Assembly: GCF_030413175.1 (NCBI RefSeq)
Contig: NZ_CP129212.1
Span: 5,308,450-5,372,449 of the forward strand
Length of the DNA: 64,000 nucleotides
Source of the DNA: Bradyrhizobium roseum
GTDB lineage: Bacteria; Pseudomonadota; Alphaproteobacteria; Rhizobiales; Xanthobacteraceae
Reading direction: 5' to 3'
Shown: positions 5,738-13,424 of the stretch, piece by piece
How positions within the stretch are numbered: position 1 is the stretch's first letter
How the letters are laid out: every line of letters starts with the position of its first letter
Made by a program: the position numbers and the translations under genes
The notes under the pieces: generated by a model
Database searches by the model: none
The model's input: the letters and a program-made list of their open reading frames with translations, nothing else
What the model was told of the DNA's origin: nothing

Positions 5738-5862
5738 CCTGCTTCTGACCGGATCGAAGTTAGCACTCTATCGCTATGCCAGAGCGTAACGGATTTGCCG
5801 GGTTCAAGAACCCTGCTTCGCTTTGGGTCAATCGAGACGGTTCTGCCTGATCCCAGTCAGGT

Positions 5863-5930
5863 CCGGTTTTCCCCTGATAGGCGACATACTCGCGGCCGAG
5901 AGACTCGGCAGCGACGGGCCACAAGGCGAC
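5863..5930. repeat. Diverged intergenic repeat, copy 1
   Basis: This 68-bp stretch aligns without gaps to 12180-12247 at about 50 of 68 positions by hand. Both start CCGGT, pass through CGACATA and end CGGCAGCGAYGGG...GCGAC. A further related copy is at about 9701-9770. Confidence 0.55.
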
Positions 5931-5933
5931 CTT

Positions 5934-6563
5934 TCAAAACGCGAAGTTCACTATGTCAGCCAGGTAGTGTCCAAGAACTGCTGGCCAAAGTGCCCCGGAT
6001 CGGCGGTACAACATCATCAACAAGCCACCTATCACCACCGCCACGCCGATATTCCCGAAACCCGTCCACCAGTGATAGGCTCCAAACAAGAAAGATGTTG
6101 CGAGAACCAAGGCATAGCCGTCGTCCAAATAACTCTGGAGCAGATGACGCGCACATCGCCGAAATACGATCTCCTCGCTTAAGGCGACTAGGCCAAGACC
6201 AAAAAAGATATCGACGACATGTAGCCAACCTTGCACTGCGGGATATGGCGCGAGCACTGTTGCAGGTAGGACCGCATTGATGGTGCGTCGGATCCAACCA
6301 TCCAAATAGTGGTCCGCGAGAACAATACCGACAATCCAGATGGTCACTTCCCATCGAGGTATTCGAAGTGGTTCAAATCGGAAGGCTATTGTTCGCGCAG
6401 CAGGTATGGCGAACAGAACTGCCAAAGCCCCGAGGCGACCTGCGTAGTCCCAAACCATCCATGCCGCCGGATCGGATTGCTGCAGTCTTACAATTTGCGA
6501 CACAACCATTGGGAAAAGGGCCGCTGCGAACCAGAGAGGCGTGGGTATCGCGCGAACCATCAT
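5934..6563 (-). CDS. CPBP-family intramembrane protease (CAAX/Abi-like)
   Basis: 209 aa with about six hydrophobic segments. It shows the three blocks of the CPBP/Rce1 family: the EEIVFR motif with the paired glutamates, the later FGAYHWWTGFGN histidine block, and a C-terminal HYLADIVNF histidine/asparagine block. The family are intramembrane glutamic proteases or bacteriocin-immunity/phage-abortive proteins. The 5' end lies 75 bp from the IS1182 element, and the IS transposase frame runs antisense through this gene. No obvious ribosome binding site precedes the ATG pair at 6558-6563, so expression may be low. Confidence 0.78.
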   Translation of the reverse strand: MMVRAIPTPLWFAAALFPMVVSQIVRLQQSDPAAWMVWDYAGRLGALAVLFAIPAARTIAFRFEPLRIPRWEVTIWIVGIVLADHYLDGWIRRTINAVLPATVLAPYPAVQGWLHVVDIFFGLGLVALSEEIVFRRCARHLLQSYLDDGYALVLATSFLFGAYHWWTGFGNIGVAVVIGGLLMMLYRRSGALWPAVLGHYLADIVNFAF

Positions 6564-8166
6564 CGTGTATCTTTAGCGCGGCTGATACATTTACCGCAAT
6601 ACGGCCTAGCGAGCACGGGCACGTCCGCTTCGGGTCTTGGCCGTGTAAAAACCCCATTCCAGAGAAGCCGGAGAGAAGGTCGGACCGTTCGGCCTCAGGC
6701 CGCGATCGCGCCATCAACGGCTTGGTCCCAACGATGTTCATAACCCGGGTCAGATTGTAGGCCAGGACCGAGAGGGCCATCTCGGCGGCTACTTTAGGAA
6801 GCGTTTTGGTCAGGAAGTGCGTCGCACCCATGCGCGCTTTCATGGTGCCGAACGGATGCTCGACGGTCTCGCGACGTAGTCGCATGGCGAGCGGGTTCGC
6901 ATCGAGCCGCTGCTGCACGGCGTCGAGCAGATGCTCGTGTTCCCATCGTGTGATCCGTCGCTCGGACCCGGGCGTGCACTGGGATTTGATCGAACAATTC
7001 TTGCAGGCGTTGGTCCAGTAGCGCCTCAGCATCTTGTCGGCTTCTTCGTTTGTATAGCGATAAGGCAAACGCTCCCCGGCCGGACAACGATAGGCATCGT
7101 CCTCCGGCAAATAGACGAAGTCCTGCTTGCCGAAGCGTCCGTCCGACTTGGCGCCCGAAGTCATCGGCTTGGGCAGGGTTATCGTGATGCCGGCCTCGTG
7201 GCAGGCGAGGATCTCCGGGCTGTTGAAGTAGCCGCGGTCGGCAACGGCCTCGAGGGTCTCGGTCTGCAATACAGCCTTTGCTTGCCTGGCCATATTGGCG
7301 AGTTGCGCCCGATCCGAGCCGCTGTTCGTCACCTCATGGGTAATGATCAGGTGATGATCGGTATCCACAGCGACCTGCACGTTGTAGCCGACGACGCCCG
7401 AGCCACGGCCGCTGGTTGCCATCGAGCGACTGTCGGGGTCGGTCAGAGATATCTGCTGGTCGGGCGAAGCCAGCATCTGCTTCTCGTAGACAGCAAGCTT
7501 GCCCATTTGCTCCTTCACCTTCGCCAGCTTCTCCTTGAGTCTCGTCACCTTCCCGGCCAGCGCTTCGGTCGGCTCCTGCCGGTCGGCGGTGTCAAGCTGG
7601 CTCAGATAGCGGGCAACGCTTTCCTCCAGTTGGGCACGCCGCCGCTCCACCTTTGCCCGCGTGAAGTTCCTGTCCCGGTTGTTCACGGCCTTGAACTTGC
7701 TGCCATCGATGGCAACGCTCGCCGTCGCGAGAAGGCCCATCTCACGGCAAAGCTCAACGAAGCGCGCGCAGACCTTGCGGAGCCCCAGGCCGTTGTCCTT
7801 GCGGAAGTCTGCGATCGTCTTGTGATCAGGCACGAGCCGGCCCAGCAGCCACATGACTTCGACATTGCGACCGGCCTCTCGCTCCAGCCGCCGGCTCGAC
7901 TGCACCCGGTTAAGGTAGCCGTAGATGTAAAGCTTCAGGAGAACCGAGGGATGGTACGACGGCCGTCCGGTCGCCGCCGGGTCCACCCCATCGAAGCCCA
8001 TTTCCGCCAAATCCAGCGCATCGACAAACACGTCGATCACCCGAACCGGGTTGCCTTCGTCAATGAAATCATCGAGGCATTCGGGCAGCAGCGTCGATTG
8101 CCCACGATCCGCCTCTTCAATGAAGCGCCTCATCAATTCTCTCCCGAGAATCATCGAGGTAATCAT
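6373..8166 (-). CDS. IS1182-family transposase, reading through the IS end
   Basis: 597-aa frame. The N-terminal part (QSTLLPECLDDFIDEGNPVRVID; GRPSYHPSVLLKLYIYGYLN) and the DDE-type residues in VAIDGSKFKAV, AVADRGYFNSPE and VEHPFGTMKARMG mark an IS1182/IS5-like transposase with a central insert and a cysteine-rich block (CKNCSIKSQC). The family normally ends around residue 480-500. Here no stop occurs before the terminal repeat, and the frame continues about 88 codons into flanking DNA, antisense to the CPBP gene. The catalytic core looks complete, so it may still be active. Confidence 0.85.
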   Translation of the reverse strand: MITSMILGRELMRRFIEEADRGQSTLLPECLDDFIDEGNPVRVIDVFVDALDLAEMGFDGVDPAATGRPSYHPSVLLKLYIYGYLNRVQSSRRLEREAGRNVEVMWLLGRLVPDHKTIADFRKDNGLGLRKVCARFVELCREMGLLATASVAIDGSKFKAVNNRDRNFTRAKVERRRAQLEESVARYLSQLDTADRQEPTEALAGKVTRLKEKLAKVKEQMGKLAVYEKQMLASPDQQISLTDPDSRSMATSGRGSGVVGYNVQVAVDTDHHLIITHEVTNSGSDRAQLANMARQAKAVLQTETLEAVADRGYFNSPEILACHEAGITITLPKPMTSGAKSDGRFGKQDFVYLPEDDAYRCPAGERLPYRYTNEEADKMLRRYWTNACKNCSIKSQCTPGSERRITRWEHEHLLDAVQQRLDANPLAMRLRRETVEHPFGTMKARMGATHFLTKTLPKVAAEMALSVLAYNLTRVMNIVGTKPLMARSRPEAERSDLLSGFSGMGFLHGQDPKRTCPCSLGRIAVNVSAALKIHDDGSRDTHASLVRSGPFPNGCVANCKTAAIRSGGMDGLGLRRSPRGFGSSVRHTCCANNSLPI

Positions 8167-8224: not shown

Positions 8225-8257
8225 CAGATAGGGTCCGCTGAGGGCCAAAAGGCGACG
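8225..8257. repeat. Fragment of the intergenic repeat family beside the IS
   Basis: GGTCCGCTGAGGGCCAAAAGGCGAC, just outside the IS right end, matches the GGGYCAAAANGCGAC end of the repeat copies at 5863 and 12180. Nothing else is seen between the IS and the next gene. Confidence 0.4.
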
Positions 8258-8362: not shown

Positions 8363-9646
8363 ATGATCCGGATTGGACAGCGCGAACAAGAAGTGCCGAT
8401 GTGGATATGGGCGACGGTGCCGCTGATATTCGTCGCCCTTGCGCTCCGCGAATCGACCACATATCGCGGGATAGTCTTCGAGCCCGACGTCGACTACGTC
8501 CGCATCGTTGCCCGATGCGCGGTGGCTTCCATCGCAGGCTTCCTGCTGATGGACCTGATGCGCCGGGCGACTACGCCTTGGTACAGCCTACCATTCCTGT
8601 TGATGGCGAGCTTTGCAGCCCCGGCGATCGCGATCGGCTGGCTGAACGACGCGATGCGGGAGCTTATCGCCGTTGTCGTCGGGGCCGCGATCACGGCGGC
8701 CGCCGGGCGAGGCGGCTCGGGTGCGGCGGGATTGCTTCTGATGGGAATTACCCTTGGCACGCCTCTGGTCGCCGGCGCGCTGCTAACGCTATTTTTCACG
8801 CTGGTGAGTAGGTTTCTGGCCGACTTACCTCTGTGGTCGCGCGATGCCCGGCGCGAGTTGCTGGCCAATCTTGGCGCGATGGTACTCTGGCTGGTCGTCG
8901 CGCTCGGCGGCTATATCGCAATCCGCTCTTCATTCGGTCTGTCGACGGTTCGAATGTCGGCAGCCGGAGCTGTGCCGCACTGGTTGCCGGTCGTCGCTGC
9001 CTTGCTCGGAGCTTTTCTGGCGACCGCCGCCCATCTCGCATCGGCTGCGCGTGCCCGCCGAGAAGAAGCCAATGAGCGCCGTGGCCTAAAGATCTGGCTG
9101 CTCGCGGTGGTCTGCGGCGCAGCTTTTTTCCATAGCCCCGATCTCTTCGGATTTACGAGCCACCGGCTCATGTATGATCACATCCGGCCGATGTTGCGTT
9201 CGGCGCATTTGTTACCGTCGCCGGACATCATCGTTGCAGATTATCGCGTCAGCGTTCCGTTTCACGACTACAAGACCAATAAGGGCGCGCTGATGCCCGA
9301 CGGGAAGCCGTCCTATCTCGGCGTAACCATGCCGGACGAATATGGTCTGAGCAGCAAACGATTTATCCCGAGCGTTACCGTCTACCGTCGCGACATCACG
9401 TTGCAGCAAACCTCAACCTGGTGGACCGACCGCCGCAAACTGCTTGAAATTGCCAAGGCGGCCGAGCCGGACCAAGACGCAGTTGTCCGCTTTGCCGGTC
9501 CACGCGGCTCCATCGGGCTACGCAGCGATCAATATCCGGAAGTCGATATACAGCTCAACGATTTTGATCCGGCTGTTTCAACCGAGACAGCTGAGCAGGC
9601 GCTGCGCCGATTCCTGCGCGAACGCCTCCAGCGCGTAAGCGGCTAA
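8363..9646 (+). CDS. Hypothetical multi-spanning membrane protein with C-terminal soluble domain
   Basis: 427 aa, not recognised. Residues 10-260 hold about seven or eight hydrophobic segments (for example MWIWATVPLIFVALAL, LLLMGITLGTPLVAGALL and KIWLLAVVCGAAFF). Residues 260-427 are soluble and begin with SPDIIVADYRVSVPFHDYKTNKG, contain many Tyr/Trp/Asp, and end LRRFLRERLQRVSG. A second possible start is the ATG at 8399 (MWIWATV). The gene lies alone between the IS and a stretch of repeat DNA, and its codon use is close to that of the core genes. A sensor or transport role would be a guess. Confidence 0.7.
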   Translation: MIRIGQREQEVPMWIWATVPLIFVALALRESTTYRGIVFEPDVDYVRIVARCAVASIAGFLLMDLMRRATTPWYSLPFLLMASFAAPAIAIGWLNDAMRELIAVVVGAAITAAAGRGGSGAAGLLLMGITLGTPLVAGALLTLFFTLVSRFLADLPLWSRDARRELLANLGAMVLWLVVALGGYIAIRSSFGLSTVRMSAAGAVPHWLPVVAALLGAFLATAAHLASAARARREEANERRGLKIWLLAVVCGAAFFHSPDLFGFTSHRLMYDHIRPMLRSAHLLPSPDIIVADYRVSVPFHDYKTNKGALMPDGKPSYLGVTMPDEYGLSSKRFIPSVTVYRRDITLQQTSTWWTDRRKLLEIAKAAEPDQDAVVRFAGPRGSIGLRSDQYPEVDIQLNDFDPAVSTETAEQALRRFLRERLQRVSG

Positions 9647-11335: not shown

Positions 11336-11851
11336 CTATCGCTGCTTGAACATCAGCATCAGATGGAACGCTCTCTTTTGCTCGATGCTGGACGAATTGA
11401 ACCAAGTCATGGCCTGATAAGCGTCAGATACAGCAATCTTCGCTTCCACATCCGTAAAGGTTCGGTTGGGATCGTAGTCTGCCAACAGGCGCTGGGCTTG
11501 CAGGTTACCGGTGACGCGCGCGAAATCTGCGACAGGGCCCAGACCGGCGCTCGGCACGATGGCCAATCCCTGCGGATTTGTCTGACTGAGTTGCCGGCAC
11601 AGCTTCGCCAGGGTCGAGTGGTCAACGCTACGATAAATCAATGAATAGCTGCTCGTCGAACTGGCGGTCGAACGATTGGCCGGCCCACCGTGAAAGACGT
11701 CCGCCAAAGTTGTCAAAGCGAAATGAAATACCGCGTAATAGGCATTCGAGATAGCTCTCCGAAAGTCGGCCTGAGTTGCGCCCGACCGGGAAGCGAGCAT
11801 GGTTGCTTGCTGGAGCAGTTCGTCGGGATCAGGGGGCACCCTGTTCCTCAT
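11336..11851 (-). CDS. HEPN-domain-like protein, second gene of a two-gene module
   Basis: 171 aa. The N-terminal third reads DELLQQATMLA...DFRRAISNAYYAVFHFAL, the R(R/S)AxSxAYYAxFH helix typical of HEPN-domain proteins, a fold shared by many RNases and toxins. The family's usual length is 120-170 aa. The rest is helical, with a DVEAKIAVSDAYQAM helix and an FHLMLMFKQR end. Its ATG lies inside the upstream 90-aa gene, whose stop is 23 nt further on, so the two are translationally coupled. The function may be an RNase toxin or an RNA/nucleotide-binding partner; I cannot place an RX4-6H active site with confidence. Confidence 0.7.
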   Translation of the reverse strand: MRNRVPPDPDELLQQATMLASRSGATQADFRRAISNAYYAVFHFALTTLADVFHGGPANRSTASSTSSYSLIYRSVDHSTLAKLCRQLSQTNPQGLAIVPSAGLGPVADFARVTGNLQAQRLLADYDPNRTFTDVEAKIAVSDAYQAMTWFNSSSIEQKRAFHLMLMFKQR

Positions 11852-12101
11852 ATCGCACGATCGGGAGTCGTTCTTCGCCCTTGTCGGCCAGTTGCCGGAT
11901 CAAGTCGGAGACGGTCATGGCAGAAGGTTGGCCCATAGCAGCGGCCGAGGAGCCGTGGCTCAGAACAATCTTGATTTCAATGGCCACGTTCCCTGCCCAA
12001 TCGATAGTGGGCGAGGTCGAGACGTTGGACACGGCAATGTTGTTCGCTTGCGCGACAGTTCGCGTCAACTGAACGATTTCCCGGTCAGACAGAGTGCTCA
12101 T
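11829..12101 (-). CDS. Unknown 90-aa protein, first gene of the HEPN module
   Basis: 90 aa: an N-terminal helix (LSDREIVQLTRTVAQAN), two strands around PTIDWAGNVAIEIKIVLS, then a helix (TVSDLIRQLADKG) and a short C-terminal strand (RLPIVRYEE). GAGG lies 6 nt before the ATG, and the 3' end overlaps the HEPN-like gene by 23 nt, which both argue that it is real and co-translated. I do not recognise the family; it is not an MNT nucleotidyltransferase, the common HEPN partner, as there is no GSxARG-type motif. An antitoxin or adaptor role is inferred from position only. Confidence 0.65.
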   Translation of the reverse strand: MSTLSDREIVQLTRTVAQANNIAVSNVSTSPTIDWAGNVAIEIKIVLSHGSSAAAMGQPSAMTVSDLIRQLADKGEERLPIVRYEEQGAP

Positions 12102-12504
12102 GATCGTCCTCGTTCACGATGATAGTATTCCCCGGCGGCTTTGTCTCTCCGTGCGAGGATTAATTTCACCGGGTCTTCTCCGGTCTAACCCTGACAGCCG
12201 ACATATCGTCGCCCGTGGGATGCGGCAGCGATGGGTCAAAACGCGACTTCAGGCGGCCACCGGTCTACTTCAGCTTGTCTCCCAGCAACGGACATCGGCC
12301 GGGCCGCTCGGGAGGTCTGTTGAGGGCCAATAGGCGACATGCTTGCAAAGGCACGGATCCGGGCTCATGCGCAATGGTCGTTCGTTGTGGTCGCAAGTGC
12401 CGTCGGCGGTGAACCTTTCTCGGGCGGCCCGCGACAAACAAGCCGCCATCGTTGCGACGGCGGCGCGTGCCATGCCGATCGCGCGACGCCAATTGAGGTC
12501 GCCC
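12102..12504. other. Intergenic stretch with two repeat segments
   Basis: No gene is supported in these 403 bp. Repeat copy 2 fills 12180-12247, and a partial copy (CGGACATCGG...TTGAGGGCCAATAGGCGACAT) follows at 12290-12340. The Sel1 protein could be read from an upstream start at 12343, but that extension looks unlike a signal peptide and lacks a good ribosome binding site. Confidence 0.5.
12180..12247. repeat. Diverged intergenic repeat, copy 2
   Basis: 68 bp aligning without gaps to 5863-5930 at about 50 of 68 positions by eye. The best conserved parts are ACCCTGACAG/CCCCTGATAG, CGACATA and CGGCAGCGATGGG...GCGAC. Confidence 0.55.
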
Positions 12505-13209
12505 ATGCCGATCGTCCGAATCCTCCTGCTCCTTCTCGCGCTCGCTTCGCCGCTGTCGATGGCGGGAGGCGCTGTTGCGGGGCCGTTTGAGGATGCGCAG
12601 GCGGCGCATGGCAGACGCGACTACGCAACCGCGCTACGGCTCTGGCGTCCGCTGGCCGACCAAGGCAATGCCGAGGCGCAGTACGCACTCGGGTTCATGT
12701 ACGAAGGCGGCCAAGGTGTGCCGAAAAATTACGCCAGGGCTGCAAAGTGGTGGCGCCTCGCAGCCGATCAAGGCCATACCTTCGCCCAGTACAACCTGGG
12801 GACCTTGTACGACAACGGCAATGGGGTGCCTCGGAACAAAGCTGAAGCATTGAAGTGGTATCACCTCGCCGCCGAGCGCGGTAACGATGGTGCGCAGTTC
12901 AACGTCGGGGCCCTGCATTTCGCGGGCGTGGCCGTGTCCCAGAACCGGACCGAGGCTGCGAAGTGGTTTCGCCGCGCTGCAGACCAAGGTCATATTGGAG
13001 CGCAGGTCTATCTTGGCCTCTGTTACGCTACGGGACTAGGCGTGCCGCAGGACAATGTTCAAGCCTACATGTGGCTCAGTTTGGCGGTTGCGCGAAGTGA
13101 CCAAGATGCGATCAGCAATCGAAATCGCGTCGCGCAGAAGATGACCCCGGCACAGATCGCCGAAGCGCAGAAGCTGGCGGGTGAGTGGAAGTCGAAACCG
13201 GAACGGTAG
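12505..13209 (+). CDS. Secreted Sel1-repeat protein
   Basis: 234 aa. A signal peptide (MPIVRILLLLLALASPLSMAG, cut after AVAG) leads into four to five Sel1/TPR-like repeats of about 36 residues, each with the pattern A(E/Q)AQYxLGxxYxxGxGVPxxxxxAxKWxxxAAxQG. Such repeats bind protein partners, usually in the periplasm or cell envelope. I chose the ATG at 12505 because GAGG lies 6 nt upstream and the signal peptide starts there. It has no operon partner on its strand. Confidence 0.88.
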   Translation: MPIVRILLLLLALASPLSMAGGAVAGPFEDAQAAHGRRDYATALRLWRPLADQGNAEAQYALGFMYEGGQGVPKNYARAAKWWRLAADQGHTFAQYNLGTLYDNGNGVPRNKAEALKWYHLAAERGNDGAQFNVGALHFAGVAVSQNRTEAAKWFRRAADQGHIGAQVYLGLCYATGLGVPQDNVQAYMWLSLAVARSDQDAISNRNRVAQKMTPAQIAEAQKLAGEWKSKPER

Positions 13210-13424
13210 TATTCCCGTGCGTCGCGGAAGCAATGTCTGCTGTCGGTCACACGCGACGGTCCGACCGCACAGCTCGTTATGTCTCCTCCGAAAGCGGCCT
13301 CTACGGGCCTCATCGGGAGATCGGCTCAGGGCGGGATGCGAGCGAACTATAAAACTTTAGATGCCACAACAATTGAGCGGCAATCCCCACGCACTATGCT
13401 GACGGAGCATGAGGCTGCAATAAA

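Follow-up and report, generated by a model that had tools for sequence, protein, structure and literature searches.

A HEPN-fold gene overlapping a small non-MNT partner gene in Bradyrhizobium roseum: a candidate toxin-antitoxin module

HEPN proteins have usually been explained through MNT partners or through restriction-modification (R-M), abortive infection (Abi) or CRISPR (clustered regularly interspaced short palindromic repeats) contexts (PMC3710099). In one of the closest known arrangements, the HEPN-MNT (HepT-MntA) modules of toxin-antitoxin type VII, two small genes are adjacent and the presumed antitoxin gene comes first (PMC3710099). In a 2009 survey, HEPN is reported both alongside MNT and, for paREP1, as a fusion with a ribbon-helix-helix domain (PMC2701414). 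The AF0298-like branch of HEPN-T (PF05168, PDB entry 2hsb) was discussed in 2013, with stand-alone proteins, MNT fusions, Sacsin and R-M clusters as its contexts; in this branch, an aspartate takes the place of the motif histidine, the insert that joins helices 2 and 3 contributes a second conserved histidine, and an alternative active site has been proposed (PMC3710099). Here we analyze a pair of minus-strand genes in a 64,000-nucleotide stretch of the Bradyrhizobium roseum genome (contig NZ_CP129212.1, positions 5,308,450 to 5,372,449; below, the window). The pair consists of a small partner gene of 90 codons with an ATG start (11829..12101), the candidate antitoxin, and a HEPN-fold gene of 167 codons with a GTG start (11336..11839), the candidate toxin.

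The two gene families are found adjacent to each other, in the order small-then-HEPN and mostly overlapping, in six phyla, and this adjacency exceeds chance. Like HEPN-MNT modules, the pair has two small adjacent genes with the presumed antitoxin first, and its second protein is of predicted HEPN fold. It differs from them in both proteins: the partner is without the MNT motif or fold, so that nucleotidylation of the toxin is not expected, and the HEPN protein has RxxADY instead of Rx4HxY, the target motif on the HEPN protein of HEPN-MNT modules. The HEPN branch is known; a HEPN-based two-gene module with a different, non-MNT partner is the new aspect. The available part of PMC3710099 makes no mention of a small KH-like partner for this branch, and no description of the pair was found among the literature matches listed. 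A large HEPN branch has its own near-constant partner family, unnamed in Pfam. The pair also offers a test of the 2013 proposal, namely whether HEPN domains with an aspartate for the catalytic histidine plus an extra conserved histidine are RNases at all. With two short, overlapping genes that can easily be expressed, this test of the alternative site would be direct.

Predicted folds of the two proteins

The second protein of the pair is predicted to fold as a HEPN domain. Its structure model, with a predicted local distance difference test score (pLDDT) of 94.3, shows the four-helix HEPN fold, and its five best rows in the VIA structural comparison were 2hsb (Z 11.4), 1ufb (9.6), 1wol (9.5), 3o10 (9.0) and 2q00 (9.0), with the caveat that unrelated proteins can also score this high when the model is helical. 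Three of them (2hsb, 1wol and 3o10) are HEPN proteins by PDB title, and 1ufb we take to be another. The entry 2q00 is HEPN according to Table 1 of PMC3710099. Foldseek by itself gave a weak match for the model (2hsb, E 0.049). A profile of 22 members of the family found 9xbd, 9xbc and 2hsb in the PDB at E 0.0004-0.0013, the first two being titled HEPN domain-containing protein. The model and these matches bear out the HEPN call of the initial annotation, and the helix motif to which it had pointed, RRAISNAYYAVFH, is present at residues 31-43 of the second protein in its 171-residue form.

A search of 5.8 billion proteins returned 25 relatives of the HEPN protein at E ≤ 1e-3, and of 7995 candidates scored with a profile of 65 members, 1477 matched at E ≤ 1e-5. 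No confident name was obtained for either window protein from Pfam, NCBIfam or PADLOC. Against PF05168 the HEPN protein scored 13.9 bits, below the 22-bit cut-off, and in this it differs from the AF0298-like branch; 23 of the 65 members matched PF05168 at E ≤ 0.1 (best 1.4e-6). Among the 120 profile matches listed, none had a precomputed Pfam domain, and several were named 'UPF0332 family' by their source. Other candidate identities were rejected: DUF6221, for which the match falls under the family cut-off; the NCBIfam names of the 65 members, spread over 13 families with one member each (best E 0.003); and PADLOC HEPN_IX, weakly matched by three of the 65 (best E 0.0018).

For the small partner, a search at E ≤ 1e-3 found 13 proteins, the window's own copy included. 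Its model (pLDDT 87.5) is KH-like. The order of elements is alpha-beta-beta-alpha-beta, compared with alpha-beta-beta-alpha-alpha-beta in the type II KH fold, and the six best VIA rows were KH proteins: 8csp chain a (9.2), 1wf3 (9.1), three entries titled Era (8.8, 8.7 and 8.4) and 8fmw chain C (8.5). We take 8csp chain a to be ERAL1, 1wf3 to be Era and 8fmw chain C to be uS3, all of them KH proteins. From the type II KH domains of Era and uS3 the partner differs in being a single small domain beside HEPN, in its low identity in those VIA rows (8-12%) and in having no GxxG loop; this loop is absent both from the window partner, where G57-Q58-P59-S60 stands, and from the consensus of 64 rows.

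No match to the small protein of the window was found in Pfam, NCBIfam or PADLOC at E ≤ 10, and no Pfam family had matches in more than two of 64 members of its own family, with nothing consistent among them. PF01877 (RNA_binding), matched by 2 of the 64 with a best E of 0.0023, was taken as chance, and a partner profile matched nothing in the PDB beyond repeat proteins and chance entries (dPPR10 at E 1.3e-4). MNT nucleotidyltransferases carry the motif G[SG]...DxD. This expression matched 1 of 96 partner rows and the model has the alpha-beta-beta-alpha-beta order, so an MNT identity was rejected, in agreement with the first description of the partner as not the usual MNT. Neither an MNT nor an antitoxin fold appeared for the partner in the VIA and Foldseek lists, where absence proves nothing.

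Linkage of the two gene families

We collected 113 loci with the HEPN query alone: 3 from a search covering 59 congeneric genomes, 80 (the best 80 of 110) from a pattern search, and 30 from a search of 385 genomes of the class. The set contains duplicates, and the locus of the window itself is in it twice (L001 and L084). A partner model made from 13 position-blind sequences gave 30 matches at E ≤ 1e-3 among the 12,404 open reading frames (ORFs) of the 113 loci, duplicates included. Of these matches, 29 were directly upstream of the HEPN gene and the remaining one was downstream. With an iterated model, trained on upstream ORFs, 101 of 109 matches were directly upstream, and the partner was found upstream in 99 of the 113 loci (95 of 107 without duplicates). 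Most of the 90 measurable pairs overlap (75, mostly by 4, 14 or 20 nt); the genes are separated by 0-20 nt in 14 pairs and by more in a single pair. Conservation as a pair, on which the initial annotation had made its proposal depend together with the HEPN fold, was thus upheld by this survey and by the reciprocal search described below.

In the window, both minus-strand frames as first listed, 12101-11829 (90 residues) and 11851-11336 (171 residues), score as coding (79.4 and 25.8, respectively, with a hexamer model trained on the window), and both have relatives. The second frame can start at an ATG (11336..11851; 171 residues) or at the GTG of codon 5, at 11839. In the alignment, the HEPN relatives begin with V/M/L-PP at window residue 5. 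The start is therefore probably the GTG, and the overlap of the two genes is likely to be 11 nt (11829..11839) rather than the 23 nt (11829..11851) that would follow from the ATG. The overlap itself stands as originally noted; its length of 23 nt does not. Both genes share a GAGGA-N5 start signal, in which the ribosome-binding site lies 5 nt ahead of the start codon. For the small gene, whose ribosome-binding site had already been recognized, it is at 12107..12111, ahead of the ATG. For the HEPN gene it is at 11845..11849, ahead of the GTG, and is formed by Glu-Glu codons near the 3′ end of the small gene.

Possible functions of the pair

Our best estimate, held with slightly better than even confidence, is that the conserved overlapping pair works as a toxin-antitoxin module. 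This idea, raised when the locus was first described, fits the anatomy of the pair, which is that of a type II system: two small adjacent genes, with the antitoxin position first, in a self-contained unit whose mobility is partial. RNA would be attacked or blocked by the protein of predicted HEPN fold, which the small upstream partner would hold silent by forming a complex with it. The overlap would couple translation, with the partner made first and in step, and loss of the partner would free the toxin. A non-MNT partner would silence the toxin through binding, not through nucleotidylation. A more specific version is a toxin-antitoxin family of at least six phyla in which a HEPN protein with an alternative R-x3-H / R-x3-D-Y active site is controlled, in place of a nucleotidyltransferase, by a small KH-like antitoxin whose RNA-binding fold could serve to recognize the RNA target or to bring it in; we put it forward as tentative and rather doubtful.

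The toxic site would be the alternative HEPN site, R121 with H78. The stretch with R74 and H78 (11618..11632, minus strand) is conserved, both residues being present in 105 of 105 aligned rows. The codons of R121-L-L-A-D125-Y126 (11474..11491, minus strand) lie at the end of helix 3, in the place of Rx4-6H in HEPN RNases; R121 was found in all of 102 rows, D125 in 100 and Y126 in 99. Position 122 is His in 73 of the 102 rows and Leu in the window protein. In the model, H78 is in the insert between the helices of residues 27-53 and 106-126, and R121 is at the end of helix 3. The family thus has the residues of the AF0298-like alternative site: R121, D125 and H78. It differs from that branch by the invariant R-x3-H in the insert and by its linkage to a small partner of its own. 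AbiV is similar in that it also lacks Rx4-6H and has an alternative histidine at the same position (PMC3710099). Compared with the near-invariance of R74, H78, R121, D125 and Y126 in the HEPN protein, the partner family is loosely conserved.

Several observations, in this paragraph and the next two, weigh against the toxin-antitoxin reading. That any member is toxic, is neutralised or forms a complex is something that we infer. Where helix 3 ends, R121-x3-D125-Y126 stands in place of the canonical HEPN RNase motif Rx4-6H. With this motif missing, RNase activity is doubtful, and the term 'RNA-cutting' therefore depends on the proposed alternative site. The invariance or near-invariance of R32 (104 of 105 rows), S35 (105), Y39 (105) and H43 (104), in an alignment that counts the window twice (itself and L001), was partly selected for residues 30-39, which belonged to the pattern that fetched 80 loci, unlike the other residues. 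The covariation of distances in the two families (r 0.76 over 63 pairs; maximum of 500 shuffles, 0.12) speaks for the reading, but such a mirror correlation would also arise from co-inheritance. No DNA-binding domain common to the partners was found by Pfam, unlike in most type II antitoxins.

Parts of the distribution of the pair point in the same direction. Six phyla carry it among 53 treed rows, and members of one phylum group together on the HEPN tree more than under shuffled labels (8 changes, compared with a mean of 16.3); the pair is therefore old and in part vertically inherited. Its absence from all 59 congeneric genomes searched fits a patchy, mobile module and is in favor of the reading, yet two contigs of Bradyrhizobium metagenome-assembled genomes (L004 and L005) do carry it, so that the genus is not empty. 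One of 72,556 plasmid records and none of 50,697 phage records matched. A constant gene precedes the pair in two clades of three loci each, which suggests stable inheritance and hints at domestication.

Copies without a partner were inspected individually, and not all of them could be explained. Among the 14 of the 113 loci with no upstream partner match, two had a partner-like end where the contig stops (L011 and L015), one had no upstream sequence (L074), one had a weak partner end (L101) and one had a frameshifted partner (L032; E 2e-13). The partner was downstream of the HEPN gene in L050, L056 and L110, with two tandem copies in L050 and L056, and L111 was a weak match to another HEPN kind. 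In L034, L061 and L071, the upstream ORF was partner-like by eye alone (E 0.07-3.7). At the locus entered as L055 and L095, no partner end was found within 146 upstream bases, and a solitary HEPN gene is possible there. The reciprocal search supports the linkage: of 385 genomes drawn from the class, 28 were matched by the HEPN profile, 32 by the partner profile and 27 by both (Fisher p 2e-35). Agreement is favored there by a partner model that includes the window and 12 rows from loci of the same genomes.

In these 385 genomes, solitary copies were distributed asymmetrically. The only HEPN-only genome (G327) was a weak 27-bit match; among the five genomes with the partner alone, G268, G377 and G414 were weak as well. 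By place, 36 of 39 HEPN places were paired, two genes split in two being included in the places. The unpaired ones were the weak match in G327, a place at a contig end with a weak partner end (G464:C161), and a place at a contig start with no partner end in 146 bases (G166:C24). Of 48 partner places, 14 were solitary: three were weak, six were at or beside contig ends, and five were clear (G110, G360, G462 and two in G371). Of the 27 genomes that carry both families, 9 have at least two HEPN genes, in line with mobility. The partner can thus occur alone; for the HEPN gene, a solitary state is possible at no more than one place (G166). This asymmetry leans towards a toxin and its antitoxin, although it is not proof.

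As an alternative, the KH-like partner might bind RNA and, as an adaptor, guide the HEPN protein to chosen transcripts, the pair acting jointly as a regulatory RNase or translational repressor rather than as toxin and antidote. We consider this unlikely, even with the KH proteins in all six best VIA rows of the partner, the RNA-acting nature of the HEPN fold and the constant gene ahead of the pair in two clades, all of which agree with it.

A non-catalytic heterodimer of ordinary physiology, whose HEPN protein has lost RNase function and which binds a nucleotide, a metabolite or a protein client, seems quite unlikely to us. It would account for the missing Rx4-6H, and HEPN domains without conserved polar residues may be non-catalytic (PMC3710099). 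The genes around the pair could also be read in this way: we scanned 113 of the 197 nearest neighbors, the rest being left out by length and origin, and the Pfam families found, for which 25 of the 88 matched are shown, were mostly metabolic. The near-invariance of R74, H78, R121, D125 and Y126 over 102-105 rows would, however, be difficult to account for if there were no active or binding site, and the distribution of the pair is patchy.

That the pair is an abortive infection system acting against phages by itself, with the HEPN effector set free upon infection, is very unlikely: HEPN is a common Abi effector, the conserved alternative histidine is also found in AbiV (PMC3710099) and one copy lies on a viral contig (below), but the PADLOC matches are weak (HEPN_IX, above; PDC-M05B in 1 of the 65 members, 9.7e-5), none of the PADLOC families shown (25 of 53 matched) had matches in more than two of the 113 neighbors, and no phage trigger is known.

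Mobility and genomic surroundings

Besides being in part vertically inherited, the toxin-antitoxin candidate behaves as a self-contained two-gene unit of partial mobility. No constant third gene was found, the largest shared neighbor cluster spanning 8 of 104 loci. The one plasmid copy (L181; NZ_CP126997.1, 71846-72659) is flanked by parA and an integrase gene, with rep and a RelE-type module close by and a type I-C CRISPR locus in the vicinity; both pair genes are annotated there as hypothetical protein. Addiction modules often sit in plasmid settings of this rep/parA/integrase type. One IMG/VR contig carries both genes, among frames that by eye resemble tail genes. An empty insertion site could not be defined by synteny with congeners, since the flanks of the pair match them in scattered pieces and no boundary was shown.

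In L036, L046 and L069, which form one clade, and in L026, L035 and L081, which form another, the pair directly follows one constant gene on the same strand. By Pfam tallies, these genes probably encode a Cys/Met-metabolism pyridoxal phosphate enzyme and a class-I fructose-bisphosphate aldolase.

Enrichment in defense islands was rejected on the PADLOC count given above, in a scan with no random-neighbor control; a Pfam DNA-methylase was matched by two of the 113 scanned neighbors. In the window, the close neighbors are an insertion sequence (IS) transposase gene (6373-8166) and alpha/beta hydrolase, Sel1, LuxR and GntR-aminotransferase genes. Among 20 window proteins scanned in addition to the pair (511-26954), on which PADLOC was not run, no defense gene was named by Pfam. 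Of the setting proposed in the initial annotation, the IS transposase and a few direct repeats were confirmed; the defense-locus character was not, the flanks being ordinary genes plus one IS. The direct repeats are an 18-base pattern in two copies (8239-8256 and 12321-12338), not seen in shuffles, and a 69-base repeat of 74% identity (5862-5930 and 12179-12247).

The Sel1-repeat gene with its upstream stretch (12233-13255) has copies of 92-98% identity in congeners, three in G019 and one in G033. The copy in G033 is directly followed by DNA matching the transposase region of the window (6623-7107). A 427-residue frame at 8363-9646 has a good coding score and no Pfam match.

One solitary partner gene, outside the window (L183, 1739-2769), is followed after about 230 bases by a gene with a SocA/Panacea antitoxin domain (PF13274, E 1.7e-10). 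The genome that carries it, G371, has five partner matches and one HEPN match.
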